64,000 nt of DNA from Oscillospiraceae bacterium (GTDB taxonomy: Bacteria; Bacillota; Clostridia; Oscillospirales; Acutalibacteraceae), in assembly GCA_910574995.1 (NCBI GenBank), contig CAJTCS010000001.1, positions 248,001-312,000 on the forward strand, written 5' to 3'. How positions within the stretch are numbered: the stretch's first letter is position 1; every line of letters begins with the position of its first letter. Below, piece after piece: positions 10,779-60,739 of the stretch. A program made the translations under genes and the position numbers. The notes beneath the pieces were generated by a model. It did no database searches, was not told where the DNA came from, and saw only the letters and a program-made list of their open reading frames with translations.

Positions 10779-10787
10779 TGCCTTTTT

Positions 10788-12753: not shown

Positions 12754-12803
12754 AGGTTATCTAAAAAAGATTCCCCCAAGGGGCAAAGAGAGAAGGGCTT
12801 TCC

Positions 12804-13840: not shown

Positions 13841-14257
13841 TCAAGGCCAAATCTTCCAGACGAAAAAAAGCCCCGGGGTCCCGGGGCTTTTTTTCGCGAA
13901 TACTTTATTATATCCACAGGATGTGAACGCACGACTAAAAAGATATTTTCTCCAAATCAGTGTGCGTATCCGAACCCTCACATCAAACTGGTATTGTTTG
14001 TTCAACTTCCAATCCTCCCGCACCGGCCGGTCATCATACTCCATCGGATGATTTTCCAGCCCCTCTAGGATAGTAAAAATTTCATCCAGCCGGGACTGTG
14101 TGTATTCTTGTTCCTGTTGCACATTGCCATACTGAGCTAGCTGCTGCTCTAGGTTGTTCTTTTCAGCCATGAGCGCTGTGGCCCGCTGCTCATCGAATTC
14201 CTCGACCGTATCGGTAGCTATGGCCTGTAACATATGGAGCGGAATCGATATCCGCAT
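13841..14257 (-). pseudogene. C-terminal coiled-coil piece of a large serine recombinase
   Basis: The segment TVEEFDEQRATALMAEKNNL through EIFTILEGLENHPMEYDD is the coiled-coil and C-terminal part typical of large serine recombinases. The frame then runs into unrelated sequence and the asnA terminator, so the true C-terminus is missing or replaced. It overlaps the preceding recombinase piece in another frame, which marks a frameshift or deletion junction near 14200-14257. There is no catalytic domain. I read it as debris of an integrated element. Confidence 0.65.
13863..13894 (+). terminator. Bidirectional intrinsic terminator after asnA
   Basis: GCCCCGGG (13870-13877) pairs with CCCGGGGC (13880-13887), with seven A on the left and seven T on the right. 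It can stop transcripts from asnA and from the recombinase remnants on the other strand. Confidence 0.9.
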
Positions 14258-14933: not shown

Positions 14934-15124
14934 GCCGTGTGACACCTCACATTCTTTGGAATTTGTTCCGTAAAGGCCAGTCCACCGACGATATGAAAGG
15001 TCAGTTTTGAATTGTCCACGACTGTGATACTCTGCACAATTTCCTCGAACAGTGCTTGGCTGAACGGCGTACCCGGTACATATCCCGCCATGGTGTCATC
15101 CAGCGATTTCAGCGTGTATATCAA
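14930..15124 (-). pseudogene. C-terminal fragment of a serine recombinase, shifted out of frame from 15.1-16.4 kb
   Basis: The 64 residues contain FEEIVQSITVVDNSKLTFHI followed by GGLAFTEQI, the usual end of a large serine recombinase. The frame begins inside the stop region of the preceding recombinase (15121-15124), so a single frameshift appears to have split one original gene in two. Confidence 0.7.
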
Positions 15125-16392
15125 TTCATCATCTTCATTCTCTGCAAGCCCTTCTTGCGATCCAGCCGCAGGGCGTTGATTTTATTGCTTATTACTGAGG
15201 ATTGCGCGGCGAAGTCAGTTGCGTTCAGAACGCCGTTGGTGTGGAGCCGGGCGACCACCAGATTCTGCGCACTCAGGTCGGCTATCTGCTTATCTATCTG
15301 CCGTATCTTATCTTGGCTTTCGCCGCCACGGTTCTGCATCATCTCCAACTGATGGATAAGGGTACCGAATAGGTCATTGCGGTGGGCAGACAGCTTATCC
15401 ACCATTAAGCAAAAAGCATCGTAGACAGCATTTTCCCTCACACGCCTGCTCTGGCAGTTTGTGGCACCAGCCGCCTTGCCGCTGCACAGCCAGTAGGCGG
15501 TACCGTTCAGGAGCAGCCTGCGGAACGAGCGGCCACATTCTGGACAGTGAAGGATACCGGTCAGGAGATGCACACCCTCGCGCTTATGGCTGATATTGCG
15601 CGATTTTTGCAACTCCTGCGCCGCCTGATAGGTTTCCCGGCTGATGATGGGAGGGTTACTGTTCTCCACATAATACTGCGGTTTTTCGCCGCGATTCTTT
15701 TTCTTTCTGAATGGCAGGGTATCCGTGGTGAACTTCTTTTGCAGGAGGGCATCGCCCATATAGCGTTCGTTTCTGATAACATAGTCGATCGTGGTATGGT
15801 GCCATTTTTGTTGTCCGTGCCGTCGGGAAACACCCTCCGCGTTGAGGATATTGGCAATATTCTGCTTACCGATCCCCTGCAAGTAAAGGTCAAAAATGCG
15901 GCGAATCACAGCCGCCTCATCCTCCTTGACCACATCCCTGTCCTTATAGAGCGCGGCCCATTCCCGTTCCCCGCCGTAAAGGGCGGCGGCTATTTTCTCC
16001 CTGTACCCGCCCCGGCACCAGGCGGCAAGGGTATCCCGCCGGAATTCCTCATCCGATATGGGCAGGTAGCCCGGCTTCTCCGGGAAGGGGGATACCTCAA
16101 AGCCGCATATGTTTTCATTACAAGCAGGGGTCATCTGGTTTTCCCCCCCTCTCCGGGCATTTTCCTGCTTCTTCATGCAAAAAGCCAGTTCCTGGTTTGC
16201 CCTGGCGAGCAAGTCCTTCATAGCCAAAAGCGGATCGGAGAAATAGTGCCCCCAGAAATAGTCCGTGCCGTTTTTGCAGGCCCAGCTCACAAACTGTGAG
16301 GGGGCCTTGCTGTGTACTCCCATTACAAACTCCGTCTCACCAACGTGGACAGAATCTGTAATGATATAACCCGCGTTTATCCTTATACTCAT
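15121..16392 (-). pseudogene. Chimeric protein: small element protein fused to a recombinase lacking its catalytic domain
   Basis: Residues 1-70 (starting MSIRINAGYIITDSVHVGET, with NGTDYFWGHYF) resemble a small protein found beside recombinases in Firmicutes integrative elements. From about residue 95 the frame continues into recombinase sequence: VKEDEAAVIRRIFDLYLQGIGKQN is the recombinase domain and CPECGRSFRR with a later Cys pair is the zinc ribbon. A coiled coil follows, then an early stop. The resolvase domain that carries the catalytic serine is missing. GGAGGTG precedes the ATG at 16392. The fusion probably arose by internal deletion between adjacent element genes. The C-terminus is in the frame-shifted piece at 14930-15124. 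Confidence 0.7.
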
Positions 16393-16903: not shown

Positions 16904-17926
16904 CTACGAATCCGCCGCGCCATCATACCGTTGGCCCCGCTCCAGGGTGTGCTGGATAACCACCCGGTAGTCTCGCTCTAACTCGCCGTTGATGGCGGCG
17001 TGGAGAAGGTGTACGGCTGTACTGCCCATTTCATCATGGTGCGGGTTGATATAAGGGAAGCTGCAGTGGTTAAAATCCCAGCCGTCGTTGTCATCCATGG
17101 CCAGGACCCCTACCTGGTCAAAGGTTTTTCCAGCCAGCCGCAGGGCATAGGAAGCGCCTAAGGCCACCACGTCCGTTACGCCCACCACTGCCTCTAAATC
17201 CGGGTGATCCGCCAGCAGCTTCCAGCAGCCCTCATATCCCCCCTCCATGGACATGTCCACAATGCGCACCAGGCTAGGATCCGGCTGGATGCCATGGTTC
17301 ATCATGGCAAGATAATAGCCGTTAAGCCGCTTTTTTTCAAAGAGCGGTATATGGGTTGCCAGGTCTACCGACAATATCCCGATTTTTTTCTTCCCCTGAG
17401 ACAAAAAGAAAGATGCCGCGTCCTCGCCTATCTGCACCTCGTCGTTATATACCACCCGGTTATAGCCCTGGGTCATGACAGGCTCCCCTATCTGCACCAG
17501 GGGATAAGCCCCCACCAGCCGCTGGAATCGTGGGGTGACGTCCGCGCAGTTGACCAGGAGGATGCCCGCCAGAAGGGGGGACAGGGATTCCATGGTGTCC
17601 ACAAGGTTCTGGTATTCGTCAGGGCTGTCATAGTGGACGCTTACAGCCCTGTACCCCATAGCAGCCGCCGTACTCTGGAAGGAATACAGGATGCCCGGGA
17701 GGAAGTCGCTGCAGACAGCCAGCAGGATCTTCCTGTCCCCTGTCTGCCTGGAGGGGCTGTTGGGAATAGGGCGGTTGCGCTCGGGCACCGTGTACCCTAC
17801 CCTTTCCACCGCTTCCATAACGCGCTGCCGCTTTTCTTCCGTAACGGAATAGCTGCCGTTTAAGACACGGGAAACTGTGGCGGTTGAAACGCCCGCCTCT
17901 TTTGCTACGTCTAAAATGGATGCCAT
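16904..17926 (-). CDS. LacI-family transcriptional regulator of the 18-27 kb locus
   Basis: The 340-residue protein has a LacI helix-turn-helix at residues 3-25 (ILDVAKEAGVSTATVSRVLNG), the hinge helix region near 45-58, and a periplasmic-binding-protein-like sensor domain from about residue 65 (KILLAVCSDFLPGILYSF, with GVLAMDDND and SCFPYINPH-like C-terminal signatures). It is divergent from the flavodoxin-like gene at 18231. The 304-base space between them carries LacI-type operators, so it most likely represses the catabolic operon until a sugar-containing ligand binds. The ATG at 17926 follows AAAGGAGC. The inducer is unknown; the context suggests a plant glycoside or its sugar. Confidence 0.92.
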   Translation of the reverse strand: MASILDVAKEAGVSTATVSRVLNGSYSVTEEKRQRVMEAVERVGYTVPERNRPIPNSPSRQTGDRKILLAVCSDFLPGILYSFQSTAAAMGYRAVSVHYDSPDEYQNLVDTMESLSPLLAGILLVNCADVTPRFQRLVGAYPLVQIGEPVMTQGYNRVVYNDEVQIGEDAASFFLSQGKKKIGILSVDLATHIPLFEKKRLNGYYLAMMNHGIQPDPSLVRIVDMSMEGGYEGCWKLLADHPDLEAVVGVTDVVALGASYALRLAGKTFDQVGVLAMDDNDGWDFNHCSFPYINPHHDEMGSTAVHLLHAAINGELERDYRVVIQHTLERGQRYDGAADS

Positions 17927-17977
17927 ATCCAGCTCCTTTCACAGCGTTTCCAAAGAAATCAATCATTTTATAAGGGT

Positions 17978-18006
17978 ATTATACCGGATCGGGAATTAAA
18001 AAGCAA
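17978..18006 (-). promoter_or_regulatory. Promoter of the LacI gene
   Basis: On the minus strand, TTGCTT (complement of 18001-18006) and TATAAT (complement of 17978-17983) are 17 bases apart. The -10 box lies within the palindrome GGTATTATACC. Confidence 0.65.
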
Positions 18007-18044
18007 GCACATGGATGTAACGTTTTCTGATATTTTCTGTAAGC

Positions 18045-18060
18045 GCACAACTTGTTGTGC
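18045..18060. promoter_or_regulatory. 16-bp palindrome in the divergent control region
   Basis: GCACAAC-TT-GTTGTGC is a perfect palindrome midway between the LacI gene and the operon. Its sequence does not resemble the LacI-type operators at 18174 and 18197, so it may bind a second regulator. Confidence 0.45.
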
Positions 18061-18129
18061 ACTTTGTATGAAACCAACAGCATTGGTATGGTAAAAGAGT
18101 GGATTTTGCTTCTGTGGCCTGAAAATGTC

Positions 18130-18206
18130 TTGAAAATTTTCTGAAAAGTAGTACTATAAATATAACAAATTCAGAAACGTTTCAAACCGCATTCTTGAAA
18201 TGTTTC
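18130..18206 (+). promoter_or_regulatory. Operon promoter with two LacI-type operators
   Basis: TTGAAA (18130-18135) and TACTAT (18152-18157) are spaced by 16 bases. Just downstream, GAAACGTTTC (18174-18183, a perfect palindrome) and GAAATGTTTC (18197-18206) are typical LacI/GalR-family half-site pairs and would block transcription. They are spaced 23 bases apart, about two helical turns. Around the -35 region CTGAAAA is repeated at 18119 and 18141, a motif also found near 59.2 kb. Confidence 0.65.
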
Positions 18207-18230
18207 TAAAAATGATGAGGAGGAAAAAAC

Positions 18231-19205
18231 GTGAAAATTTTGGGCATTTCGTTTGGCCGCAAAAACCAGCGCTGCGACATCATGGTGAAAGAGGCGCTCT
18301 TTGCGGCGAAGGGGGCCGGGGCCGAGGTGCAGTTCATCAACACCATGGGCCTGCGCATCGACCACTGCCACGCCTGCGACTACTGCGCCCGCTGCCGGGA
18401 CAGGGGCGATGTGGAAGTCCGCTGCTGCCTGAAGGACGACTACCACATCCTGGAGGAAGCCTACTACGACTGCGACGGCATCATCATCGGCGCCCCGGTG
18501 TACGCCGTGGGCATTGTGGGGCAGTTCAAGAATTTTCTTGACCGCCTCTGCCCCTCCCACGACCGGGCGGAGATGTGGGAGACAAACAAGAAGCGTGAGG
18601 CCGAGGGCAAGCCCCTTCTGGACGAGCGCTACTTCAAAGACCGCTATTCCGCCTACATATCCGTGGGCGGCGCCAACACCCGCAACTGGGTGGCCCTGGG
18701 GCTTCCCATGCTCCACCTGTTCGACTTCTCCTTCATCCAGAAGTGCGTGGGCCATGTGGACGCCTACGACCAGGGCAACACCGGCAGCCCCATCCTGGAC
18801 CGGGCGCTGCTGGACCGCTGCGCCTCCCTGGGCACCGCCGTGGCACAGTCCATCGGCAAGCCCTACAGCGAAGTGGACACCTGGGCCGGCGACCCCGACG
18901 ACGGCGTGTGCCCCGTGTGCCACTGCCGGATGCTGAACATCAACGGCACCACCGACGTGGAGTGCCCCATCTGCGGCACCTGGGGCAAGATGGAGGTTGC
19001 GGACGGCAAGGTGAAGGTGAGCTGGAGCGAGGAGCAGTTGAACCGTGCCCGCAACACCCCCAACGGCATCTACGAGCACTACAACGAAATCCAGAACATG
19101 ATAAAAATCTGCGTGCCCAAGCTCACCGACCCGGACAACAAGGCCCTTATCGACCGGGAGATGGACCGCTACAAGCGATTTGACCAGATTGTGGGCAACA
19201 AATAA
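18231..19205 (+). CDS. Flavodoxin-fold NAD(P)H:FMN oxidoreductase with C-terminal zinc ribbon
   Basis: Residues 1-190 are an NADPH-dependent FMN reductase-like domain: MKILGISFGRKNQRCDIMV starts the flavin-phosphate loop, and GIIIGAPVYAVGIVGQFKNFLDRL is the second flavin-binding segment. Cysteines near residue 43-65 (CHACDYCARC, then RCCLKDD) resemble iron-sulfur flavoproteins. Near residue 225-245 a four-cysteine ribbon (CPVCHC ... CPICGTWG) is added. Translation starts at GTG 18231 after GAGGAGG. It is the first gene of the LacI-controlled operon. It could reduce the aglycone or serve as electron acceptor or donor for the downstream oxidoreductases. Function in the pathway is inferred. Confidence 0.85.
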   Translation: MKILGISFGRKNQRCDIMVKEALFAAKGAGAEVQFINTMGLRIDHCHACDYCARCRDRGDVEVRCCLKDDYHILEEAYYDCDGIIIGAPVYAVGIVGQFKNFLDRLCPSHDRAEMWETNKKREAEGKPLLDERYFKDRYSAYISVGGANTRNWVALGLPMLHLFDFSFIQKCVGHVDAYDQGNTGSPILDRALLDRCASLGTAVAQSIGKPYSEVDTWAGDPDDGVCPVCHCRMLNINGTTDVECPICGTWGKMEVADGKVKVSWSEEQLNRARNTPNGIYEHYNEIQNMIKICVPKLTDPDNKALIDREMDRYKRFDQIVGNK

Positions 19206-19256
19206 GAGGGTATTGCTGAACGGCGCACCGCGCGCCCTTTGAGAGGATGGATTATA

Positions 19257-20633
19257 ATGGAAAACACGTTGAAGCCTTTGGGCTTTAAAGAGTATTTTGT
19301 CTATGGGCTGGGCAACTTCGCGTCCCAGCTTTCGTGGACAATGGTAGGCACCTACCTTTCCCTGTTCTACACCGACGTGTTCGGCCTGACCCCCATGGCC
19401 GTCTCCCTGCTGATGCTGGTGGCCAAGGTCTGGGACGGCATTAACGACCCCATGATGGGCACCCTGATGGAGCGCACCCACACCAAGTGGGGCCGCTTCC
19501 GGCCGTACATTTTCATCGGCGCGCCCCTGCTGGTAGTGTTCACCGTGCTGACCTTCACCGTGCCAAACTTCGGCGGCTCCGCCAAGCTTATTTACGCATA
19601 CGTTACATACATCGGCCTGGGCATGGCCTACACGGTTACCAACGTGCCTTACCTGGCCCTGCCCGCCGTTATGACCAACAACCCCAAGGAGACCAGCCGC
19701 CTCATGTCCGCCCAGATGATGGGCATGACCATCGGCCAGATTCTGCTGAACCTCACCGTGCTGCCCCTTATCGAGTTTATCGGCAAGGGCGACCAGGCCG
19801 CGGGCTACCACAGCACCGCCATCCTGCTGGCGGCGATTTCCCTGCCCATGTTCTGGGCCGTGGCTGCCCTGTGCAAGGAGCGCATCACCGTAAAGAAAGA
19901 GAACCAGGGCTCCATCTGGGAGGGCCTGAAGCTGGTTGCCAAAAACCGCAACCTGGTGTGCGCCATCCTGTACGCCATGATTAACATGACCGGCATGCTG
20001 GGCCGCATCGCCATTGCCGTGTACTTCTACCTGTACTGCGTGGGTGACTTCCGCTTCATCACCGTGTTCATGATGATGCAGATGATTGTGGGCACCCTTA
20101 TCATGCCCCTGGCCCCCAAAGTCATTGAGAAAATCGGCAACCAGAAGACCGCCATCCTGTCCATGCTCATCCAGGGCGGCTCCCTGCTCATCCTGTTCTT
20201 CGGCCCCTCCACCAGCGTGCCCTTTGTGTTCATCATGCTGGTTATTTACGGCCTGGGCTACATCGCAGGCCCCTGCGGCAGCGTGATGATGATTGACGCC
20301 ATTGACGACTATGAGGACAAATACGGCATCCGCAACGACGGCATGGCCTTCTCTTTCCAGGGCCTGGGCACGAAAATTGGCTCGGCTATCGGCAACTCCG
20401 TGTGCCTGATGATTATCGGCGCTTTCGGCTATGAGGGCGGCGTGGAGATGACCGAACACATCCAGTTCGGCATCAACTTCTCCGTAAACTTCTTCCCTGC
20501 CCTCATCTACTTTGTCGGCATCATCCCCCTGTTGCTCTACAAGCTGGATAAGCCCGGCTACATGGACGGCGTCCGGGAGCGCCTCCAGAAGAAGCGCGAG
20601 GCCGCAAAAGCTAAGACTGAGACTGCCGAATAA
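19257..20633 (+). CDS. GPH-family (glycoside-pentoside-hexuronide:cation) symporter
   Basis: The 458-residue membrane protein has about 12 transmembrane segments. The start, GFKEYFVYGLGNFASQLSW, and the motif DGINDPMMGTLMERTHTKWGRFRP are classic for GPH symporters, which import glycosides with Na+ or H+. The C-terminus is charged and cytoplasmic (KKREAAKAKTETAE). The ATG at 19257 follows GAGAGG. It lies 51 bases after the flavodoxin-like gene and is probably cotranscribed. It is the likely import step for the substrate of this locus. Confidence 0.92.
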   Translation: MENTLKPLGFKEYFVYGLGNFASQLSWTMVGTYLSLFYTDVFGLTPMAVSLLMLVAKVWDGINDPMMGTLMERTHTKWGRFRPYIFIGAPLLVVFTVLTFTVPNFGGSAKLIYAYVTYIGLGMAYTVTNVPYLALPAVMTNNPKETSRLMSAQMMGMTIGQILLNLTVLPLIEFIGKGDQAAGYHSTAILLAAISLPMFWAVAALCKERITVKKENQGSIWEGLKLVAKNRNLVCAILYAMINMTGMLGRIAIAVYFYLYCVGDFRFITVFMMMQMIVGTLIMPLAPKVIEKIGNQKTAILSMLIQGGSLLILFFGPSTSVPFVFIMLVIYGLGYIAGPCGSVMMIDAIDDYEDKYGIRNDGMAFSFQGLGTKIGSAIGNSVCLMIIGAFGYEGGVEMTEHIQFGINFSVNFFPALIYFVGIIPLLLYKLDKPGYMDGVRERLQKKREAAKAKTETAE

Positions 20634-20838
20634 GCCCCCTACCGGGCTTGTTCCATAAAAACCGCCCCTTATCTGGCCCTGCATCCTTTTTGCCATGGGG
20701 CGCGGGAGCTTTGCCGGGGCGGCTCCTCCTCAAAAGGCAGGGGAGAGGGTATTGCGTGACGCTTTCTCCCCAGTGCCTTTGGGAAAAGAAAATCCGGACA
20801 TTTTAATAAAACTTACAATTGTAAAGGAGCGATTTCTT

Positions 20839-21945
20839 ATGTCTAAAGTGAAAATCGGTATTGTAGGCTGCGGCGGCATTGCCAACCAGAAGCACATGCC
20901 CTCCATCAAAGCAAACGCGGATCTGGCGGAAATGGTGGCTTTCTGCGACATCATCCCCGAGCGGGCCGAGAAGGCCGCAAAAGAGTACGGCACAGAGGGC
21001 GCCAAAGTCTACACCGACTACCATGATTTACTGGCAGACCCGGATGTTGAGGTGGTGCACGTGCTGACCCCCAACGTGGCCCACTGCCCCATCACCGTGG
21101 CAGCCTTTGAGGCGGGCAAGCACGTGATGTGCGAAAAGCCCATGGCCCACAACACCGCAGACGCCCAGAAGATGATCGACGCCTGGAAGGCTTCCGGGAA
21201 GCTGTTCACCATCGGCTACCAGAACCGCCTGCGCACCGACACCCAGACTCTGCACAAGTCCTGCGAAAAGGGCGACCTGGGCGACATCTACTTTGCAAAG
21301 GCCCATGCCATCCGCCGCCGGGCTGTGCCCACCTGGGGCGTGTTCCCGGACAAATCCAAGCAGGGCGGCGGGCCGCTGATTGACATCGGCACCCACGCGC
21401 TGGACATCACCTTGTGGATGATGAACAACTATGAGCCTGCAAGCGTATCCGGCCAGGTGTTCTACAAGCTGGGCCGCCAGGCCGACGGCCCCGAGGGCAA
21501 TGTCTTCGGCCCCTGGGATCCCGAAACCTTTGAGGTGGAGGATTCCGCTTTCGGCCTTATCAAGATGAAAAATGGCGCCACCATCTACCTGGAGGCCTCC
21601 TGGGCGCTGAACATCCTGAAGAGCATGGAAGCTTCCACCACCCTGTGCGGCACAAAGGCCGGGGCGGAAATCCACCATGGCGGCAGCTACCCCCAGGACG
21701 AGCTGATTTACAACTTTGCCGAGAACGGCCAGCTTATGGAAAAGACCATCTCCCCCGCGGGCGTGGTGGACTTCTTCGAGGGCGGCGCGTCCGCAGAGGG
21801 CGTGGCCGAGCAGAAGCAGTGGCTGGAAGCCATCCAGGGCAAGGGCGAGCCGCTGGTGAAGCCCGAGCAGGCTTATGTGGTCACCCAGATTTTGGAGGCC
21901 ATTTACCAGTCTGCCGAAACAGGCAAAGAGGTTTACTTAGATTAA
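20839..21945 (+). CDS. Gfo/Idh/MocA oxidoreductase, candidate glycoside 3-dehydrogenase
   Basis: Residues 1-125 form an NAD(P)-binding Rossmann fold: KIGIVGCGGIANQKHMP is the dinucleotide loop, and GKHVMCEKPMAHN contains the family EKP motif. The C-terminal domain has GGGPLIDIGTHALDITLWMM with the catalytic-type histidine. The start at ATG 20839 follows AAAGGAG; an upstream extension to 20695 is unlikely. In C-glycoside degradation, a protein of this family (DgpA type) oxidises the sugar at C3 so that the adjacent C-deglycosidase can eliminate it. The DUF6379 and TIM-barrel genes just downstream make that role likely here, but the sequence alone does not fix the substrate. Confidence 0.88.
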   Translation: MSKVKIGIVGCGGIANQKHMPSIKANADLAEMVAFCDIIPERAEKAAKEYGTEGAKVYTDYHDLLADPDVEVVHVLTPNVAHCPITVAAFEAGKHVMCEKPMAHNTADAQKMIDAWKASGKLFTIGYQNRLRTDTQTLHKSCEKGDLGDIYFAKAHAIRRRAVPTWGVFPDKSKQGGGPLIDIGTHALDITLWMMNNYEPASVSGQVFYKLGRQADGPEGNVFGPWDPETFEVEDSAFGLIKMKNGATIYLEASWALNILKSMEASTTLCGTKAGAEIHHGGSYPQDELIYNFAENGQLMEKTISPAGVVDFFEGGASAEGVAEQKQWLEAIQGKGEPLVKPEQAYVVTQILEAIYQSAETGKEVYLD

Positions 21946-22094
21946 AAATATAAGATTATTTTACCATTCCTTTTGGGTGGGCGGGGCCTGCCCTGCAGAC
22001 TTGGCTTTCCCCGTCCGCCCACCCCTGTGCGGGGGAGTGGGAAATCCTGCTGCCGGGACAGGCGGCAGGGGCAATACATGAAAGGAGCGATAAC

Positions 22095-22466
22095 ATGCTG
22101 GAAACCCATATGCTGAACCCTGACGGCTATAAGAACACCGACCAGGGATTTGCTTTTCAGATGCGCGTGCCCTATTACAGGGGCATTACGCTTTCGATTA
22201 TCCGGAATATCCAGGTGACGGTTGACGGGGTGGAGTATCCCCGGGAGACCGTAACCATCACCGTAAACGGCGAAACCTTTACGCTGGAGGAGGCCCGCAC
22301 GGTTATCTCCAACCGCTGGCTTTTCGGGCAGTTTGGAGAAATCGGCGTGAAGAAGGAGGGCGGGCTGGCCCCCGGGCAGCACGACCTGTCCGTGACCATC
22401 ACGGTGGCCCCCTCTTACATGCCCATGCAGTTAGTGAAGACGGGCCGCGCACAGTTCACCATTTAA
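22095..22466 (+). CDS. DUF6379 protein, C-glycoside deglycosidase beta-subunit type
   Basis: The 123-residue beta-rich protein fits DUF6379, the small subunit of C-glycoside deglycosidases (DgpB, DfgB and CarC type), which forms a heteromer with a TIM-barrel subunit and helps build the active site. Recognisable parts are YKNTDQGFAFQMRVPYYRG near the start and VDGVEYPRETVTITVNGETF in the middle. The ATG at 22095 has AAAGGAG upstream. It lies 15 bases before the TIM-barrel gene, which argues for a two-subunit enzyme. No catalytic residue can be assigned from sequence alone. Confidence 0.82.
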   Translation: MLETHMLNPDGYKNTDQGFAFQMRVPYYRGITLSIIRNIQVTVDGVEYPRETVTITVNGETFTLEEARTVISNRWLFGQFGEIGVKKEGGLAPGQHDLSVTITVAPSYMPMQLVKTGRAQFTI

Positions 22467-22481
22467 GGGAGGGTAACGTAT

Positions 22482-23531
22482 ATGAGCTACGATATCAAAA
22501 AGAGCGTCTCCCTCTACAGCTACCAGGAGGCTTATTTTACCGGCAAGCTGGATTTGGAGGGCTGCATCCGGGAGGCGTCTAAAGCCGGGGCCACGGGCAT
22601 TGAGCTGCTGGCCGAGCAGATGGTGGATGAATTCCCGGTGATTACGCCGGAATTCAAAGCGAAGTGGTTCAAGTGGATGGAAAAATACGGCACAGAACCT
22701 AGCTGCATGGACGCTTTCCTGGAGAACCACATCTATGACAACCGGGTATGCACCCTGCGGGAGCAGATTGAGAACATGCGCCGGGACATTGAAATCGCCC
22801 ACACCCTGGGCTTTAAGGTGTTGCGCACGCTGGTGTCCACGCCCATGGAGGTTATTGAGGGCAGCCTGCCCATTGCCGAGGCCTTTGACGTAAAAATCGG
22901 CCTGGAGGTGCACTCGCCCTTTTCCCTGAACTCCGGGTGGTCGGAAGGCTACATGGAGATGATCCGCCGCACAGGCACCAAATATTTCGGGTTCATCCCG
23001 GACTTCGGCATCTTCTGCAACAAGATCCCCACAGAACTGACAAACCAGGCCCTGAAAAATGGTGCCCACCCCGAATGCGTGGAGCTGGTGCAGCAGGCTT
23101 TCAAGAACCGCTGCGAGAAGGGCTTTGTAAAAATCCGCTATGACAAAAACCTGGGCGCCGCCAACATGGACTACCGCATGGCAAACGGCCAGGGGGAACT
23201 GATGGCCGCCATCAAAAAGGCGGGAGGCAACGATGCGGACTTCGGCTACGCGGGGGCCTCCTTTGCCTACACCTGGAACGATCCCCAGGACATCATCGAC
23301 AACATCGACTACATTTTCCACACCCACGCCAAGTGCTACCACATCAACGAGGATTACGAGGAGACCTGCATCCCCATGCAGCAGGTGGTGGATGCTTACA
23401 AAAAGGCGGGCTACCATGGCTACCTCTCCACCGAATGGGAAGGCGCGGAAATGGTGGAGGACGCTTCCGAAAGCTGCATCGAACAGGTGCACAGGCACCA
23501 GGAGTGCATGCGCCGGTGCATTGAGGGCTGA
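22482..23531 (+). CDS. Sugar phosphate isomerase/epimerase-like TIM barrel, C-glycoside deglycosidase alpha-subunit candidate
   Basis: The 349-residue protein belongs to the xylose-isomerase-like TIM-barrel family. Candidate metal ligands are Glu in GLEVHSPF (near residue 142), Asp in FIPDFGIF (near 173), His in FHTHAKCYH (near 280) and Glu in STEWEG (near 318). In DgpC, DfgA and CarB enzymes such a subunit removes a proton from a 3-oxo-glycoside and drives cleavage of the C-C bond to the aglycone. The adjacent DUF6379 subunit gene, 15 bases upstream, is the usual partner. GGGAGG precedes the ATG. Alternatives are an inosose- or keto-sugar isomerase, which also neighbour Gfo/Idh/MocA genes but lack DUF6379. 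Confidence 0.85.
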   Translation: MSYDIKKSVSLYSYQEAYFTGKLDLEGCIREASKAGATGIELLAEQMVDEFPVITPEFKAKWFKWMEKYGTEPSCMDAFLENHIYDNRVCTLREQIENMRRDIEIAHTLGFKVLRTLVSTPMEVIEGSLPIAEAFDVKIGLEVHSPFSLNSGWSEGYMEMIRRTGTKYFGFIPDFGIFCNKIPTELTNQALKNGAHPECVELVQQAFKNRCEKGFVKIRYDKNLGAANMDYRMANGQGELMAAIKKAGGNDADFGYAGASFAYTWNDPQDIIDNIDYIFHTHAKCYHINEDYEETCIPMQQVVDAYKKAGYHGYLSTEWEGAEMVEDASESCIEQVHRHQECMRRCIEG

Positions 23532-23538
23532 GGACGCT

Positions 23539-23874
23539 ATGACGAACAAAGAGATTGTCCTCAGGTTTTATGAGGAATTTTTCAACGCCCACGATGTGTC
23601 CGCCGCCCTGCGCTATGTGCGGGAGGGCTACATCCAGCACAACCCCGGCATAGCCCAGGGGCGCAAAGGGCTGATGGACGCCTTCGAAGAGAAGTTTGCC
23701 CAGCACCCGGAGTTTAAGCTGGAGGTGCAGATGGCGATAGCCGAGGGCGACATGGTGGCGGTGTATCACCACAGCGTAAGCGCCCAGGGCGTGCCCCAGA
23801 CGAAAATTGTGGACTGGTACCGCCTGGAGGGCGGGAAGCTTGCCGAGCACTGGGACGTGCTGCAAGCTTTGTAA
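23539..23874 (+). CDS. NTF2-like/SnoaL-fold protein
   Basis: The 111-residue protein has the SnoaL/NTF2 pattern: VLRFYEEFFNAHDVSAALRYV, then YIQHNPGIAQGRKGLMDAF, then a beta sheet ending in VDWYRLEGGKLAEHWDV. Small proteins of this fold bind hydrophobic or oxo ligands and include ketosteroid isomerase-like enzymes. It starts seven bases after the TIM-barrel stop and is surely cotranscribed. In this locus it could isomerise or bind the keto-sugar or the aglycone, but that is inference. Confidence 0.85.
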   Translation: MTNKEIVLRFYEEFFNAHDVSAALRYVREGYIQHNPGIAQGRKGLMDAFEEKFAQHPEFKLEVQMAIAEGDMVAVYHHSVSAQGVPQTKIVDWYRLEGGKLAEHWDVLQAL

Positions 23875-23908
23875 GGCCCTATTTGGATTAAACGGAGGTA
23901 ACCGAGGA

Positions 23909-26005
23909 ATGAAACCAGTAGTTTTTAAGCTGGACGGGGCTACCGTCACGGCGAGGGAGGGGCAGAGTGTACTCAGCGCGGCGCTGGAGGCCGGGGTGTA
24001 CATCCCGCACCTGTGCCACCATCCAGACCTGCCGGACGCCGGGGCCTGCGGGCTGTGCCTGGTGGAAACGGAGGGGAAGGTTGTGTCCTCCTGCACGCTG
24101 GCTGCGCGGGAAGGGATGGAAGTCCGCACAAAGGGCGAAAAGGTGCAGGCCCGGCGGGAGCTGGCGCTGAAGCTCCTGCTGGCCGCCCACCCCGAGGACT
24201 GCTCTACCTGCCCCAAGTATGGCAAATGCGAGCTGCAGACTTTGATGCAGTATATGGGCGTAAGCCCCGAGGGCCTGGGCAGGCGTTTAAAGCCCATCGC
24301 CTATAACGACCAGAACCCCCTTATTATCCACGACATGATGCGCTGCGTGCTGTGCGGCCGCTGCGTGCGGGCCTGCCATAAGGCGCGGGGCGTGGGGGCC
24401 ATTGATTATACGAAAAAGGATGGGGAAACCCTCGTTTCCCCTGTGAAAGGCCTCTTGATGGACTCGGACTGCCGCTTCTGCGGGGCCTGCGTGCAGGTGT
24501 GCCCTACTGGCTCTCTGATGGACAAAGAGGGACAAGGGGAGCAGGGCTTCACCGCCCCCTGCAAGGCCACCTGCCCTGCCGGAACCAACGTGCCGGAGTA
24601 TGTGCGGCTGGTAAAGGAGGGGCGCTATGAGGAGGCCTCCTGCCTGATCCACGAGCGGCTGCCGCTCCCCAGGAGCCTGGGGCATATCTGCTCCCACCCC
24701 TGCGAGGACGCCTGCAGGCGGGAATGCCTCAATGAAGCGGTGTCCATCCGCAACCTGAAGCTGGCGGCACTGGAGAACGACCCGGACAAGGTGTGGAAAC
24801 CTAAACGCAAGCTGCTCCCGGCAACCGGAAAGCGGGTGGCTGTGGTGGGCGCGGGGCCTTGCGGGCTTTCGGCGGCCTACTACCTGCGCAAGCAGGGGCA
24901 CAGCGTGAAAATCTTTGAGCGCCAGGCCGAGCCTGGCGGCATGCTGCGCTATGGCATTCCCGCATACCGCATGCCCCGGGACGTGGCGGCGGATGAAATC
25001 AACGACCTGCTGGAGGTGGGCGTTGAGGTGGCATATAACAGCCCCATCGGCGACTACAAGAAACTTTCCGGGGAATTTGACGCGGTGGTGATTGCCATTG
25101 GCAACCAGCAGGGCGTGCGCCTGCCCATTGAGGGCAGCGACAAGCCCATGGCCTATGTGAACCTGGACTTTCTGCGCCTGACTGCCGAAGGGAATCCGCC
25201 CAAGCTGGGAGATAATGTGCTGATTTTGGGCGGCGGCAACGTGGCCTTTGACTGCTCCCGCACCGCTGTGCGGCTGGGGGCCAAACAGGTGCATATGGCC
25301 TGCCTGGAGAACGAAACCAACCTGCCCGGCGACCAGGAGGAGATGGAAGCGGCCCTGGAAGAGGGCGTTACCATGCACTTCGGCAAATCCTTCCTGGAAA
25401 TCGTGGGGGAAGGCGATGCCATCACCGGCGTGAAAACCGTGGATGTGGCCTCTATGTCCTTTGAGGACGGCAGGCTGCACCTGGAAACGGTGCCGGGGTC
25501 GGAAGGGGTTATCCCCTGCGACACCGTCATTTTCGCCACGGGCCAGCGGGCCGAGATGGCCCCTGAGATGGGCCTGGCCCTGGGCCGGGGCAACAGCATC
25601 GTGGTGGACGGCAGCGGGCGCACGGGCCTTGCAAATGTCTTTGCTGGGGGCGATGTGACCTACGGCACCCAGTCTGTGGTGAAGGCTGTGGCTTCGGGGC
25701 GCAGCGTTGCCGAAAGCGTGGACAGATTCCTGGGCGGTACGGGCGACACCAGCGAAAAGCTGGTAGAACTGGACACCGCCAGCCCCCATATCGGCAAGGA
25801 GCCGGGCTTTGGGGCGCGGCCCAGGGTGAAAAACGGCATCCTGCCCGCGGGCGTGCGCCGCACAGGGTTCATGCGGGCGGAGAAATCCTTTACCTGCGAG
25901 GAGGCCCGGCGCGAGGCCGGGCGGTGCCTCCAGTGCCAACTGCGGGAGCAGTTGCAGCCGCCTAAGACGTGGACGGATTTTGAAGAAGGGGGTGCGGGCA
26001 GATGA
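23909..26005 (+). CDS. Fused [2Fe-2S]/[4Fe-4S] ferredoxin and GltD-type FAD/NAD(P) oxidoreductase
   Basis: This 698-residue protein strings together a [2Fe-2S] ferredoxin (cysteines in LCHHPDLPDAGACGLC, about residues 34-50), a NuoG-type cysteine segment (CSTCPKYGKCELQ, near 98-110), and two [4Fe-4S] sites (CVLCGRCVRAC near 146 and CRFCGACVQVCP near 188). A GltD/DPYD-type module with CPAGTNVPEY (near 222), an FAD loop VAVVGAGPCGLSAAYY (near 310) and an NAD(P) loop VLILGGGNVAFDCSR (near 437) completes it. Such fusions route electrons between NAD(P)H, flavin and ferredoxin. The ATG at 23909 follows ACGGAGG. The next gene overlaps it by four bases, so the two proteins probably form a complex. 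Its presence in a glycoside operon suggests redox recycling for the oxidation step. Confidence 0.88.
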   Translation: MKPVVFKLDGATVTAREGQSVLSAALEAGVYIPHLCHHPDLPDAGACGLCLVETEGKVVSSCTLAAREGMEVRTKGEKVQARRELALKLLLAAHPEDCSTCPKYGKCELQTLMQYMGVSPEGLGRRLKPIAYNDQNPLIIHDMMRCVLCGRCVRACHKARGVGAIDYTKKDGETLVSPVKGLLMDSDCRFCGACVQVCPTGSLMDKEGQGEQGFTAPCKATCPAGTNVPEYVRLVKEGRYEEASCLIHERLPLPRSLGHICSHPCEDACRRECLNEAVSIRNLKLAALENDPDKVWKPKRKLLPATGKRVAVVGAGPCGLSAAYYLRKQGHSVKIFERQAEPGGMLRYGIPAYRMPRDVAADEINDLLEVGVEVAYNSPIGDYKKLSGEFDAVVIAIGNQQGVRLPIEGSDKPMAYVNLDFLRLTAEGNPPKLGDNVLILGGGNVAFDCSRTAVRLGAKQVHMACLENETNLPGDQEEMEAALEEGVTMHFGKSFLEIVGEGDAITGVKTVDVASMSFEDGRLHLETVPGSEGVIPCDTVIFATGQRAEMAPEMGLALGRGNSIVVDGSGRTGLANVFAGGDVTYGTQSVVKAVASGRSVAESVDRFLGGTGDTSEKLVELDTASPHIGKEPGFGARPRVKNGILPAGVRRTGFMRAEKSFTCEEARREAGRCLQCQLREQLQPPKTWTDFEEGGAGR

Positions 26006-27192
26006 AACAGGAGCTGGTTCAGAAAACGCTGGGTGCGGGGCTGTATGAATATGGGCATCACGCATGCCCGCTGGCCCAAAAGTGGGAACCCTTCCTCACG
26101 GGAGGCGTGCAGGCGGAAAAGCTGCTGGTGGCCTATGACAACGCGGACTACACCTTTGCCTCCCTGCCGCTGTTTACAGAGGAGAAAGCCCTCCTGCTTA
26201 AGGGCCTGGGCATCCTGCGGGAGGCTTTTAGTGTGGAGCGCGTGGAGATTTACCTGCCGGAAAGCGCGCCGGAGGAAGTAAAAACGGCGTGGGCTGGGGA
26301 GCCGGGGCTTCCGGTGGTTTACGGCAAGGTGGACGTGCGGGAGGTTGGAAGTAAAGACTTGCTGCACCACCCGGAAACTGTTGCGAACATTGCCCGGGTG
26401 CAGGCGGGGCAGGAGCCCATGCTCTATGCACAGGTGGCCCAGGATGAGCAGGAAAAGACACTATGCCTGCCCTTAGAGTCCACAGTGGGCAAGTTTGTGA
26501 AGGCCGCGGGCTTTGCCATTGCCGAGGGGGCCGTGGTGGCAGGCGGGTATTTCGGGCGCATGCTGGCCCCCGGCCAGCTTAACCAGCCCCTTTACGGCCT
26601 TTCCAACTGCCGCATTGAGCTTTACCCTGGCAGCTTCTGCGCGGTGAGTTTTGCTCAGAAAGCCTCTGCCCATGCCGCCGCCGAAAGCTGCGGCAGGTGC
26701 ACCTTCTGCCGGGAAGGGAATTACCAGATTTCCCGTTTCCTCAAGAGCGCGGTGACAGGGCGCGGGGCCGAGGAGGACACCGCCTGGCTGCGCTCCCTCT
26801 CGGAGGCCGTGGGCGAGGAGAGCGTATGCAGCTTTGGGCAGGAGAGCGTGCGGTTTTTACGGGACGCGCTGGTAAGCGAAAGCAAATCCTTTGACGCCCA
26901 TATCAAGGGCAAGCGCTGCGACGCGGGCGTGTGCCAGGCCTTTACCGATTACGCGGTAGACGGCAGCCTGTGCGTAGGCTGCGACAAGTGCCGCCAGGCC
27001 TGCCGCTATGGGGCCATTGAGGACGGCCCCGGGTTCATCCACCGCATTGACGTGTTTGACTGCGCCAAATGCGGTGAGTGCGCCGCCGTCTGCCCGGAGA
27101 AGGCTATCTACCGGGTGCGGGTGGGCAGGCTTATCGGGCCGACAAAGGCTACAAAGGTGGGCCGGTTCCGCACCAGCCGCAAGCAGTATTAA
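26002..27192 (+). CDS. NuoF/RnfC-like iron-sulfur protein without the NADH/FMN-binding fold
   Basis: The 396-residue protein starts in an ATGA overlap with the upstream fusion. Residues 1-125 resemble nothing specific; an SLBB-like stretch follows (VGKFVKAAGFAIAEGAVVAGG, about 155-180). The NuoF-type cluster motif SCGRCTFCREG lies near residues 229-240, and two C-terminal [4Fe-4S] motifs (CVGCDKCRQACRYG near 322, CAKCGECAAVCP near 354) end the protein. The glycine-rich NADH/FMN loop of NuoF and RnfC is not present, so electrons must enter through another subunit, probably the fusion protein just upstream. It is the last gene of the operon before a terminator. Confidence 0.82.
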   Translation: MKQELVQKTLGAGLYEYGHHACPLAQKWEPFLTGGVQAEKLLVAYDNADYTFASLPLFTEEKALLLKGLGILREAFSVERVEIYLPESAPEEVKTAWAGEPGLPVVYGKVDVREVGSKDLLHHPETVANIARVQAGQEPMLYAQVAQDEQEKTLCLPLESTVGKFVKAAGFAIAEGAVVAGGYFGRMLAPGQLNQPLYGLSNCRIELYPGSFCAVSFAQKASAHAAAESCGRCTFCREGNYQISRFLKSAVTGRGAEEDTAWLRSLSEAVGEESVCSFGQESVRFLRDALVSESKSFDAHIKGKRCDAGVCQAFTDYAVDGSLCVGCDKCRQACRYGAIEDGPGFIHRIDVFDCAKCGECAAVCPEKAIYRVRVGRLIGPTKATKVGRFRTSRKQY

Positions 27193-57967: not shown

Positions 57968-59122
57968 TTATTTTGCGTGTATCCGGTTGACCACTGCCGA
58001 TGCCACCCCGCAGGCCATAATAGCCGCACCGCACATCAGGTACCGCTGGGCCGTACCCTCCCCGGCAAGGCCGGAAACGGCGTTCACCACCACCGGGGAC
58101 AGAGCCGCGCCTACATTTATCACCGCCATGTATACGGAAACCGTAAACGCGTTGTTTTGGGGTTTCAGGTATTTTGACAAAAGGTAGGTGCCCACCGCGT
58201 TATAAAAGGCAAAGGCCGCGCCAACTAAGGCCCCGCCCGCCAGCACGGGTACAAGCGACCGCACAAAGAATGCCAGCAAAAAGCCTGCCCCCGCCAGGGC
58301 CAGCGCCACAGTCTGGGCCTGGTCCTTCGCCTTCTTCACCAGCAGACCGAAAACCGACCCGCCCGCGATGCCTCCCAGGGTGTTGCACATGGTAGCCAGC
58401 CCGGCGGCTTCCGGCCCGCCGATGCCGGTTTCGCTTATGTACAGGGAAGAGTTTGTGTTAAAAGCATTCTGCATGACAAAGTATAAAAACCCGATGCCGA
58501 AGATGAAGGCCACATAAGGGTTCATTTCAAAGCCGCTGCCAGATTCTTCCTTCTGCTGTGCGGGGCCGCTGTCTGGCAGGCACAGCAGCGCCACTGCAAG
58601 CACAGGGATAAGCAGCAGGAAGGAAAGATAGCAATAAAACCAGTCTCCTAAAAGCGACACAAGCTGCCCGCCCACAAAGATGAACAGCATGGCCCCAATC
58701 GCCACAAAGGTGGCGTTCAGGCCCATGAGCTGCGCCCGCTCTTCCTCTTCAAAGCAGTCGCATATGATAGCGTTAATCACGGGCATCAAAAGGCCGCTGC
58801 CGCAGCCGATAACCACGCTGCCCATGAGTACCAGCCAGATATTGCTGTGGAAAAAGAAGGGGAACAGGCCGCCAATGAGGTACATCAGTAGCGAAGCTGT
58901 GACAAGGGTTTTCTTGCGGATGCGCTGGGTAAGCTTCCCGGCTAAGGGGGAAAACACGATGAACATGAAGGAGGGCAGGGTCATAACCATTTGCACCAGG
59001 GAAATGTCCGTATCGGGGAACGCCGCCGCCATGCCCGCGATGATGGGTGAAAACGCCATATAGCACAGCGAGACGGTGCACGTTACCAGGATGCCAGCCT
59101 TTGCTTTTGCCTTGTTTATCAT
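57968..59122 (-). CDS. MFS transporter divergent from a flavoprotein
   Basis: The 384-residue protein has 12 predicted membrane segments. The opening KAGILVTCTVSLCYMAFSPI, the loop PLAGKLTQRIRKKTL (the MFS motif between helices 2 and 3) and GLLVKKAKDQAQ (its repeat in the second half) place it in the major facilitator superfamily. GAGGAGACCC precedes the ATG at 59122. It is divergent from a fumarate-reductase-like flavoprotein, with shared control motifs between. It probably imports the substrate or exports the product of that enzyme, which is inferred from position only. Confidence 0.88.
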   Translation of the reverse strand: MINKAKAKAGILVTCTVSLCYMAFSPIIAGMAAAFPDTDISLVQMVMTLPSFMFIVFSPLAGKLTQRIRKKTLVTASLLMYLIGGLFPFFFHSNIWLVLMGSVVIGCGSGLLMPVINAIICDCFEEEERAQLMGLNATFVAIGAMLFIFVGGQLVSLLGDWFYCYLSFLLLIPVLAVALLCLPDSGPAQQKEESGSGFEMNPYVAFIFGIGFLYFVMQNAFNTNSSLYISETGIGGPEAAGLATMCNTLGGIAGGSVFGLLVKKAKDQAQTVALALAGAGFLLAFFVRSLVPVLAGGALVGAAFAFYNAVGTYLLSKYLKPQNNAFTVSVYMAVINVGAALSPVVVNAVSGLAGEGTAQRYLMCGAAIMACGVASAVVNRIHAK

Positions 59123-59168: not shown

Positions 59169-59243
59169 TTTTCAGAAAATTTCAATATATTTTCAAAATA
59201 TTTTCAGAAAATTATTGATTTTTTCAGCAACAGACAATATAAT
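59169..59243. promoter_or_regulatory. Divergent control region with repeated TTTTCAG motifs and promoter of the flavoprotein
   Basis: TTTTCAGAAAATTTCAA (59169-59185), TTTTCAGAAAATTA (59201-59214) and TTTTCAGCAA (59221-59230) are direct repeats, with a TTTTCAA at 59190. TTGATT (59215-59220) and TATAAT (59238-59243), 17 bases apart, form the plus-strand promoter, so two repeats lie upstream and one lies in the spacer. The reverse complement of 18130-18147 is almost the same as the first repeat. Confidence 0.6.
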
Positions 59244-59281
59244 TAAGAATACCGGAATATTTTGACTGGAGGATGTCAAAC

Positions 59282-60739
59282 ATGAAAACAATGCAAGCTG
59301 ACGTGGTGGTGATAGCCTGCGGGCCTTCCGGGCTTGCCGCCGCTATTTCCGCCGCCGAATCCGGCTTTTCCGTCATCGCCCTGGAAAAAGCCATCAATAC
59401 CGGGGGCGCCGCCAATATGGGCATGGGTCCCCTGGGGCTGAACACGACCATCCAGACCCAGGAGCTTTCCAACGTCACCGTGGACAAGGCCTTTAAGATG
59501 TTCATGGAGTACACCCACTGGCGGGTAGACGCAAATCTGGTGAAGCAGTATTTTGAAAAGTCCGCCGACACCATCGCGTGGCTTCAGGACATGGGCGTGG
59601 AGTTTTTTAAGGCGTCCCGGTACTTCCCCGGCAGTGAAGCCACCTGGCACATTGTAAGGCCCGAGTCCGGCAAGCCCGGCCCCCGGGCCGCCGCCACCAT
59701 GATGAAGCGCATGACCGAGCGCGCACAGGCCCTGGGTGTGGAAATCTTCTTTGAAACGGCGGGCGACCACCTTGTAACAGAGGACGGCAGGATTACAGGC
59801 GTCATCGCCAAAACGAAGGACGGCGGGGAACTGCGCATCGGCTGCAAGGCCGCCATCATCTGCACAGGGGGCTTTGGCGCCAATGAAAAGCTGGTGCATG
59901 AAAAAACCGGCTATACATACGATAAAGATTTCTTTGGCTTCCGCATCCCGGGCCTCGTTGGGGACGGCATGCGCATGGCCCAGGAGGTGGGCGCGGGCAC
60001 CACGGACATCAACATGGAGCTTGTTATTTCTATGGCGGGCGAGCACATGACCGACCCCATCCGCGCCGCTTTCAACCAGCCCAATCTGCTGGTGAACCTA
60101 GAAGGTGAACGGTTCTTCAATGAAGAGTTTTTTGAAAACTCCACTTTTGCCGCCAATGCTACCGCTATCCAGAAGGCCCGCTGCGGCGTGATGATCATTG
60201 ACGAAGCCATTAAGCGCCACTATGTAAAGCACGGCATCGACGTGCGCAGCATGGTGCTGAACCGGGAAAATGCCGAAGGCTTTGATGAGGACATCGAAGT
60301 CGCCATAAACAGCGGCAACCCCTACGTCTACAAGGCGGACACCCTGGAGGATCTGGCCGAAAAGGCCGGGGTCAAAAAGGAAACGTTTCTGAAAACGGTA
60401 GATATGTACAATTATTACTGCGAAACATACGACGCCCAGTTCGGCAAGCGGCAGGACTATTTAAAGCCCATCGTCAAGGCTCCCTTCTACGGGGCGAAGT
60501 TCTTCCCCGGCGCATACGGCACCTTGGGCGGCATCAAGGTGAACCACTATATGGAGGTTATCACCCCGGACTTCGAGCCTATCCCGGGCCTGTACGCCGC
60601 CGGCACGGACACCTGCACCATCTATGGCGACAGCTACATGTTCCTGCTGCCCGGAAACACCATGGGCTATGCCCTGAATTCAGGCCGCATGGCAGGCGAA
60701 AACGCCGCCGGATACCTGAAAAGCCTAACCAGAGTATAA
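59282..60739 (+). CDS. Fumarate-reductase-type FAD-dependent oxidoreductase
   Basis: The 485-residue flavoprotein has the FAD-binding loop VVIACGPSGLAAAISAAESG (near residue 8), GGAANMGMGP (near 42), AAIICTGGFGANEKLVHE (near 195) and the C-terminal GLYAAGTDTCTIYGDSYMFL with GNTMGYALNSGRMAGENA. It resembles the flavoprotein subunit of fumarate reductase/succinate dehydrogenase and soluble enoate reductases, which use FAD to reduce C=C bonds. The ATG at 59282 follows GGAGG at 9 bases. No Fe-S or membrane subunits are adjacent, so the electron donor is separate. In gut anaerobes such enzymes reduce plant phenolics, bile acids or urocanate; the substrate here is unknown. Confidence 0.88.
   Translation: MKTMQADVVVIACGPSGLAAAISAAESGFSVIALEKAINTGGAANMGMGPLGLNTTIQTQELSNVTVDKAFKMFMEYTHWRVDANLVKQYFEKSADTIAWLQDMGVEFFKASRYFPGSEATWHIVRPESGKPGPRAAATMMKRMTERAQALGVEIFFETAGDHLVTEDGRITGVIAKTKDGGELRIGCKAAIICTGGFGANEKLVHEKTGYTYDKDFFGFRIPGLVGDGMRMAQEVGAGTTDINMELVISMAGEHMTDPIRAAFNQPNLLVNLEGERFFNEEFFENSTFAANATAIQKARCGVMIIDEAIKRHYVKHGIDVRSMVLNRENAEGFDEDIEVAINSGNPYVYKADTLEDLAEKAGVKKETFLKTVDMYNYYCETYDAQFGKRQDYLKPIVKAPFYGAKFFPGAYGTLGGIKVNHYMEVITPDFEPIPGLYAAGTDTCTIYGDSYMFLLPGNTMGYALNSGRMAGENAAGYLKSLTRV

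Follow-up and report, generated by a model that had tools for sequence, protein, structure and literature searches.

A locus in the genome of an Oscillospiraceae bacterium (GCA_910574995.1) is probably an inducible system for the use of flavonoid C-glucosides, in which import, oxidation of the sugar at C3 and cleavage of the C–C bond would be followed by NAD(P)H-driven reduction of the released aglycone. We studied a stretch of 64,000 nucleotides of contig CAJTCS010000001.1 (the window), where the core of the locus spans positions 16904..27192, and confirmed a set of nine genes, eight co-oriented on the forward strand and a divergent gene for a LacI-family repressor on the reverse strand (Table 1). 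A reading of the letters made without database searches (the sequence-only reading) had placed a Gfo/Idh/MocA oxidoreductase, a DUF6379 protein and a TIM-barrel protein in a row on one strand. All three are present at 20839..23531 (+), and the accompanying GPH importer, NTF2-like protein, two iron–sulfur (Fe-S) proteins and divergent LacI were also recovered with Pfam and NCBIfam models. The substrate, which that reading had called open, appears less so: homology of one protein to flavone reductase (FLR) favors a flavone-type aglycone, and, together with a module containing an FAD-dependent reductase-like protein (FADred), makes it most likely that the locus reduces the aglycone as well. The most likely substrate is a flavone-type C-glucoside, for example orientin, vitexin or one of the corresponding 6-C isomers. 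We consider this the best explanation of the gene content, conserved residues, synteny and gene fusions described below.

The cleavage of C-glycosides by the trio is well supported as a prediction because of the identity of the oxidoreductase (DgpA) to a known enzyme, the family membership of the small protein (DgpB) and the residues kept in the TIM-barrel protein (DgpC). Among PDB entries, DgpA matched 7xr9, which we take to be the DgpA enzyme of strain PUE, with 597 bits and 255 of 362 aligned residues identical (70%), followed by DgpA1 of W974-1 (9m3d, 490 bits) and a next best match of 109 bits. A profile search placed DgpB inside the Pfam family PF19906 "C-glycoside deglycosidase beta subunit" (CGDB; 117.6 bits, cut-off 27.6), presumably the former DUF6379; the PDB relatives of DgpB carry the DUF6379 label, and the assignment made from the sequence alone thus stands. 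Its best PDB match was, narrowly, DfgB (7bvs_B, 66 bits), with 8umc_B and 8qvc_B at 64 bits. The whole-genome search found one CGDB protein in the window's genome, and 8 of the 29 genomes of the genus contain a member of the family of some kind. The comparison with known two-subunit enzymes that the earlier reading had called for gave, for DgpC, matches to the alpha subunits 8qvc_A (226 bits), 7bvs_A (159), 9m3b_A (149), 7bvr_A (144) and 7dnm_A (108), some further chains falling between those named. The metal ligands of C-glycoside deglycosidases (CGDs; two Glu, Asp, His and Lys at the positions of AgCGD2) and their catalytic residues are described in PMC8563793. Through a printed alignment to PuCGD (7bvr_A), we identified the ligands in DgpC as E142, D174, H282, K284 and E318, and the catalytic pair as H144 (PuCGD H143) and the supporting E320 (PuCGD E301). 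All seven residues were invariant in the eight aligned sequences, and the signature of C-glycoside cleavage first seen in the gene order is in agreement with these findings.

The first gene of the operon encodes a protein that the sequence-only reading had called flavodoxin-like. It has the FMN_red fold; what had been missed is the homology to flavone reductase. The sole PDB match up to an E value of 0.01 was 7d38 (E = 7.1e-35), labeled Cd1, which is the FLR of Flavonifractor plautii with chrysin (PMC7862272). The alignment joins residues 1–289 of the window protein to 1–277 of FLR and covers both domains, leaving the very end of the C-terminal tail unaligned. The two proteins share 90 of 277 aligned residues (32%), which is within the range between the two characterized FLRs, those of F. 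plautii and C. ljungdahlii being 29.69% identical (PMC7862272). Of four residues at which mutation strongly reduces FLR activity, W149, H271 and I275 were kept in all five aligned FLR-like proteins, the match of W149 needing a three-residue gap that the phmmer alignment did not open. In FLR, H271 contacts the hydroxyl of the A ring and I275 lies stacked against the A and C rings, and F. plautii FLR and 11 further homologues all converted apigenin when tested (PMC7862272); with H271 and I275 kept, the window homologue points to a flavone-type aglycone. An AlphaFold model of the homologue, based on a three-sequence alignment, was discarded for its mean predicted local distance difference test (pLDDT) score of 43.

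Four cysteines with cluster-like spacing (46, 49, 52 and 64 in FLR numbering; C46, C49, C52 and C65 in the window protein) were invariant in FLR and five relatives, and they may hold an Fe-S cluster that accepts electrons from the neighboring Fe-S proteins. The main text of PMC7862272 does not use "iron-sulfur" or "Cys" and has "4Fe-4S" once, for another enzyme. The FLR assays reported there used an added NADH:FMN oxidoreductase to generate FMNH2.

The two proteins listed as Fe-S electron carriers in the sequence-only reading are indeed Fe-S proteins; that they form a module with FADred, encoded outside the region it covered, had escaped it. The first is a StnC-like protein in which Pfam recognizes a NuoG-like [2Fe-2S]/[4Fe-4S] N terminus and a GltD-like FAD/NAD(P)H domain, and its best PDB match was StnC (8oh5_C, 1e-116). 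The second, NuoF', matched HydB and StnB well by sequence in its Fe-S part alone (residues 211–371), and its predicted fold matched both along the whole chain (Foldseek E values from 4e-18 to 9e-17, query template modeling scores of 0.64–0.68), with a model that has good pLDDT just for approximately residues 1–210 and served fold matching only. The pattern G.GG.GFP of the NADH/FMN glycine loop, present in HydB, was absent in all ten NuoF' sequences that we compared, one of them a C-terminal fragment. NuoF' thus appears to lack the FMN site of its relatives and, if so, can act just as a relay to another acceptor. A second FMN-motif pattern, GE[ED][TS], matched 3 of the 10 and was uninformative, the match in the window protein being the GEES of the Fe-S domain. 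The cluster cysteines were invariant in five aligned NuoF'; among the ten, a [4Fe-4S] ligand is lost in L033, one motif is lost in L064 and one is missing from the fragment in L061 (L numbers denote related loci and G numbers genomes). In the Stn complex, NADPH supplies electrons that reach the FMN of StnB by way of the FAD and Fe-S clusters in StnC (PMC10482914). An electron-bifurcating complex was considered and rejected: the FMN/NADH loop pattern is missing, and no StnA (NuoE-like) protein was found among the nine that the locus encodes, to which that search was limited.

The likely partner of the relay emerged from the related locus L014, where an FAD_binding_2 gene immediately follows NuoF' and is divergent from a gene for an MFS transporter. 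A search of the window's own genome with this gene found a 93% identical copy at 59273-60739 (FADred), again divergent from an MFS gene (57968-59122). In both L014 and L017, the MFS gene adjoins FADred and FADred adjoins NuoF'. In the window, the interval between NuoF' and the pair contains, among others, genes for conjugation and for surface-layer proteins, part of a recombinase gene and a group II intron. The pair was probably separated from the operon by insertion and inversion, and the functional unit is probably larger than 16904..27192, including 57968-60739. The best NCBIfam model for the FADred of L014 was vinyl phenol reductase, with a score of 300.5 bits where the curated cut-off is 600.

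In the proposed pathway, the GPH symporter would import the glycoside and DgpA would oxidize the sugar at C3 with its bound NAD+, which 3-oxo-glucose could recycle. The DgpB–DgpC complex, with Mn2+ and His144 as the base, would then eliminate the aglycone and leave 2-hydroxy-3-keto-glucal. The FLR homologue would reduce the C-ring double bond of the aglycone and FADred probably a later C=C bond, both receiving NAD(P)H-derived electrons that would be handed on first by the FAD and Fe-S clusters in the StnC-like protein and then by the NuoF' relay; LacI would keep the operon repressed without substrate. DgpA is reported to recycle its own NAD with 3-oxo-glucose (PMC11239390), and a sugar route of oxidation, elimination, hydration and reduction is described in PMC10628242. 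Taking that route as redox-neutral overall, the sugar branch would need no Fe-S chain. We named two further proteins, TIM2 (putative hydratase) and Gfo2 (putative reductase), by analogy with the latter work.

A search of 84,980 species genomes with the single DgpC protein, which reaches close relatives only, found eight loci (L014–L021) and thus, with the window, a set of nine, several of which are cut off where a contig ends. L014, which appears from identical coordinates and identities to be genome G025 of the window's genus, reproduces all nine genes in the window's order, including a LacI 61% identical to that of the window; as partial versions occur in other genera, the nine-gene set is not a chance assembly. 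The GltD-like (StnC-like) and NuoF' genes occur together in five of the nine loci (window, L014, L017, L018 and L019), FADred in five (window, L014, L016, L017 and L019) and FLR in four (window, L014, L016, where it is partial, and L019). L018 is a record of Candidatus Heritagella gallinarum, and genome G229 of the window's family has its DgpC at identical contig coordinates. L019, from Clostridium puniceum, contains LacI, the GltD-like gene, NuoF', FLR, DgpB, DgpC and a second DgpBC pair, with FADred, TIM2, DgpA and Gfo2 a few kilobases further. The redox genes are joined to C-deglycosylation with clearly different types of DgpBC: L062 has all four of them with TIM2, DgpA, Gfo2 and a DgpBC in which the DgpC has 28% identity to that of the window, and L034 has FLR, without the other redox genes, beside DgpA and another DgpBC with a 28%-identical DgpC. 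The redox module also occurs without DgpABC. As far as they were read, L033, L035, L063 and L064 have FLR, the GltD-like gene, NuoF' and FADred but no DgpBC, and L061 has a GltD-like gene with a broken frame, NuoF' and FADred without FLR.

Three of these loci showed further features. The second DgpB–DgpC pair of L019 follows right after the first (region 587-12693) and its proteins are 33% and 29% identical to those of the window, while 587-2563 encodes a BaiCD/OYE-type reductase that could be a flavanone-cleaving reductase. In L021 of Catenibacillus scindens (7139-12951), DgpBC is flanked by two genes for CocE/S15-type hydrolases, and a span of 21 kb contains no redox gene. L061 (1-10822) contains genes that by eye resemble those of further FAD proteins, with no FLR or DgpBC, and the relay may serve other ene-reductions there.

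We computed co-occurrence in a sample of 398 genomes of the family, which we take to be the Acutalibacteraceae, assuming the same 398 for the four family searches. At the cut-offs used, DgpC matched in 3 genomes, FLR in 5, NuoF' in 4 and FADred in 6. FADred was found with NuoF' in four genomes (P = 1.5e-8) and with FLR in four (P = 7e-8), and DgpC with NuoF' in three (P = 4e-7) and with FADred in three (P = 2e-6), by hypergeometric tests that ignore shared ancestry. The E-value cut-offs affect these values, as the NuoF' of G396 and G313 were missed and found later by reading the neighborhood. FADred was also present in 6 of 365 genomes of the order, two of them already in the family set, giving ten genomes with FADred overall. 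NuoF' lies within approximately 3.5 kb of FADred in eight of the ten (G298, G313, G396, G419, G497, G524, G562 and G703), and in G229 it is on another contig. In three of the ten, the two are fused in one open reading frame (912 codons in G396, 912 in G703 and 906 in G524), the fused genes being those of loci L035, L063 and L064. The case for electron transfer from NuoF' to FADred draws its strongest support from these fusions. We tentatively propose, with somewhat less than even confidence, that the StnC-like NAD(P)H dehydrogenase and the FMN-less NuoF' relay form an undescribed portable module that is the natural donor for FADred and FLR, coupled here to C-deglycosylation with the aglycone as electron sink.

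The sequence-only reading had also assigned operators to LacI. The stretch between LacI and FLR contains three GAAANNTTTC palindromes near the FLR start, and none of 2000 shuffles of that stretch gave three; the matching LacI stretches have one site in L014, one in L016 and none in L019. We regard these palindromes as putative LacI operators, and as likelier ones than the motif TTTCWGAAA. The latter motif falls in the LacI/FLR and FADred/MFS intergenic stretches with three of its four sites in the window and six of seven in L014, and has one site in the FADred/MFS stretch of L017 and none in the LacI stretches of L016 and L019; it was chosen by eye from the sequences in which it was later counted, and its shuffle values are therefore descriptive.

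Several observations weigh against a flavonoid C-glucoside locus that reduces its aglycone. The window homologue is only 32% identical to FLR, differs from it in the FMN-phosphate residues 14 and 15, and has Cys in place of the Gly106 whose mutation lowers the activity of FLR; the position is Cys also in L014, Gly in L019 and L034, and a gap in L033. In the 398 genomes, FLR occurs with NuoF' in just two (P = 7.5e-4) and with DgpC in just one (P = 0.037). FLR had no match at the cut-off in G229 and G298, both of which have DgpC and NuoF', and no fusion joining FLR to NuoF' was found. None of the four redox genes is present in the stretches with DgpBC of L015, L020 and L021. FADred is 32 kb away from NuoF' in the window, and GAAANNTTTC is absent from the FADred/MFS intergenic stretches counted in the window and its relatives, so that LacI need not control both transcription units. 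The best matches of TIM2 and Gfo2 in the window's own genome have 34% identity. The phloretin hydrolase family had no match in the same genome, but the controls gave none either and its absence is not established.

These points leave room for other explanations, which differ mostly in the role given to the redox genes. The Fe-S/flavin module might balance cofactors (NADPH, NADH and ferredoxin, or by reoxidizing DgpA) in a locus that cleaves C-glycosides without reducing the aglycone, and both Fe-S proteins are in fact closest to subunits of Stn/Nfn transhydrogenases and bifurcating hydrogenases. Such a role is rather improbable given that the NADH/FMN loop pattern is missing throughout the ten NuoF' (the C-terminal fragment included), that the nine genes contain none like StnA, that three fusions link NuoF' to an FAD ene-reductase and that the NAD of DgpA can be recycled with 3-oxo-glucose (PMC11239390). 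The same chemistry could also be directed at another aglycone (isoflavone, xanthone or anthraquinone) or at O-glycosides, with the FLR-like protein acting on a different phenolic substrate. The nearest relative of the oxidoreductase is DgpA, which is known for puerarin, CGD enzymes are broad (PMC8563793), and one FLR paralogue of F. plautii was inactive on apigenin (PMC8398226); we nevertheless think this unlikely, as the residues H271 and I275 that hold the flavone A and C rings are kept in all five aligned FLR-like proteins.

That the ene-reductases act on 2-hydroxy-3-keto-glucal, in a reductive route instead of hydration, would suit a genome without close relatives of TIM2 and Gfo2. It is nonetheless very unlikely, since L017, L062 and L019 hold TIM2 and Gfo2 along with redox genes, and the module is thus no substitute for hydration there. 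We give practically no credence to a plain sugar isomerase or dehydrogenase cluster without a tie to phenol glycosides: the AP_endonuc_2 fold is by itself generic, and a simple sugar isomerase was rejected on account of the CGDB family, the 70% identity to DgpA and the CGD active-site residues.

Table 1. Features of the predicted flavonoid C-glucoside locus and of the distant FADred/MFS pair in the window
Feature	Position	Strand	Evidence
LacI-family repressor	16904..17926	-	Pfam LacI 3.1e-17 and Peripla_BP domains
GAAANNTTTC palindromes, candidate LacI operators	18132, 18174, 18197 (span 18132..18206)		3 of the window's 5 sites
TTTCWGAAA site	18137..18147		motif recurs in FADred/MFS intergenic stretch
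Flavone reductase (FLR) homologue, FMN_red fold, GTG start	18231..19205	+	FMN_red 6.1e-12; PDB 7d38 7.1e-35
GPH-family glycoside:cation symporter	19257..20633	+	TIGR00792 328 bits, cut-off 231
DgpA, Gfo/Idh/MocA glycoside 3-oxidoreductase	20839..21945	+	PDB 7xr9 597 bits, 70% identity
DgpB-type beta subunit (CGDB)	22095..22466	+	PF19906 3.2e-34; PDB DfgB 7bvs_B 3e-17
DgpC-type alpha subunit, TIM barrel	22482..23531	+	PDB 8qvc_A 226 bits; active-site residues kept
SnoaL/NTF2-like protein, no role assigned	23539..23874	+	SnoaL 1.5e-17; gene present at 6 of the 9 loci of the DgpC set
StnC-like Fe-S flavoprotein (GltD-like)	23909..26005	+	Pfam NuoG-like and GltD-like domains; 8oh5_C 1e-116
NuoF/HydB/StnB-like Fe-S protein (NuoF')	26002..27192	+	HydB/StnB match; NADH/FMN loop pattern absent
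MFS transporter, divergent from FADred	57968..59122	-	MFS_1 4.3e-40
Two TTTCWGAAA sites	59170..59210		motif as in FLR promoter region
FAD_binding_2 ene-reductase-like protein (FADred)	59273..60739	+	FAD_binding_2 4.1e-50; 93% identity to L014 gene

The table uses revised limits for the NTF2-like gene (23539-23874) and the first Fe-S gene (23909-26005), and a start of the oxidoreductase at 20839, which is most likely rather than 20695. The NCBIfam scan gave no family for DgpB, DgpC, the SnoaL protein or the FLR homologue. No tRNA was found in the window, and Rfam at gathering thresholds reported a group II intron alone. This intron (RF00029, 45619-45717) lies beside a fragment of a TraG-like coupling protein in the region 37358-46812. 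Pieces of serine recombinases occur at 14190-14945, 15121-16392 and 42630-43376, those just upstream of the LacI gene having Recombinase (and zinc-ribbon) domains and no Resolvase catalytic domain. A second LacI (-), a TIM-barrel isomerase-like protein (+) and a GPH symporter (+) at 47394-51230 form a possible further sugar or glycoside locus, and the GPH gene at 49887-51227 is 63% identical to another at 35510-36859.

Plant phenols in food and medicine include C-glycosides as some of their most stable conjugates, and the benefit that gut bacteria draw from opening these is not clear. If the proposed function is true, cleavage and aglycone reduction are joined in one regulon, which could explain how bacteria both unlock and consume dietary flavonoid C-glycosides. 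It would also point to a possible natural source of electrons for flavone reductases, enzymes characterized with an added FMNH2-generating enzyme, and the gene signature of FADred, NuoF', the GltD-like gene and often FLR could be used to pick out probable flavonoid reducers from genome sequences.

Both C-deglycosylation and flavone reduction have been described before; the Fe-S/FAD module and its link to DgpABC were not found described in the literature searched, which consisted mostly of open papers in their text and not their figures. We found there no description of the module with FLR or DgpABC, including in the available text of PMC12101588, PMC12940152 and PMC12141560. According to PMC11170127, Catenibacillus has FLR and DgpBC, with dgpA apart from dgpBC, and the FLR, Fcr and Phy genes of C. 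butyricum are consecutive (PMC11868195).

Among known systems, the dgp cluster of strain PUE, which acts on puerarin, resembles the window in its trio: DgpB and DgpC are homologous with the same catalytic residues and DgpA is 70% identical to 7xr9, whereas for the window DgpC the match to PuCGD 7bvr_A has a lower score than those to 8qvc_A and 7bvs_A. In strain PUE, the genes are part of a large cluster that also includes transporters and accessory genes without a clear role (PMC8398226); in a comparison that excludes these accessory genes, the window adds the FLR homologue and the Fe-S/FAD module. The dfgABCDE genes of Eubacterium cellulosolvens include DfgB, narrowly the best PDB match of the window's beta subunit, and DfgCD, which act on O-glucosides (PMC11170127), the latter set beside the window by description and not by sequence. 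The Stn/Nfn transhydrogenases (StnABC) have in common with the window the GltD and NuoG domains of StnC and the fold and Fe-S part of StnB/HydB, the StnC-like protein of the window having 698 amino acids against 1172 in StnC. For FADred, the nearest NCBIfam model is the vinyl phenol reductase VprA, a match below the cut-off made through the L014 protein and with orthology not established; FADred differs from VprA and other FAD_binding_2 reductases in that its gene partner encodes an Fe-S protein. The FLR homologue, in turn, differs from FLR of F. plautii in its place in a C-glycoside operon with Fe-S proteins.

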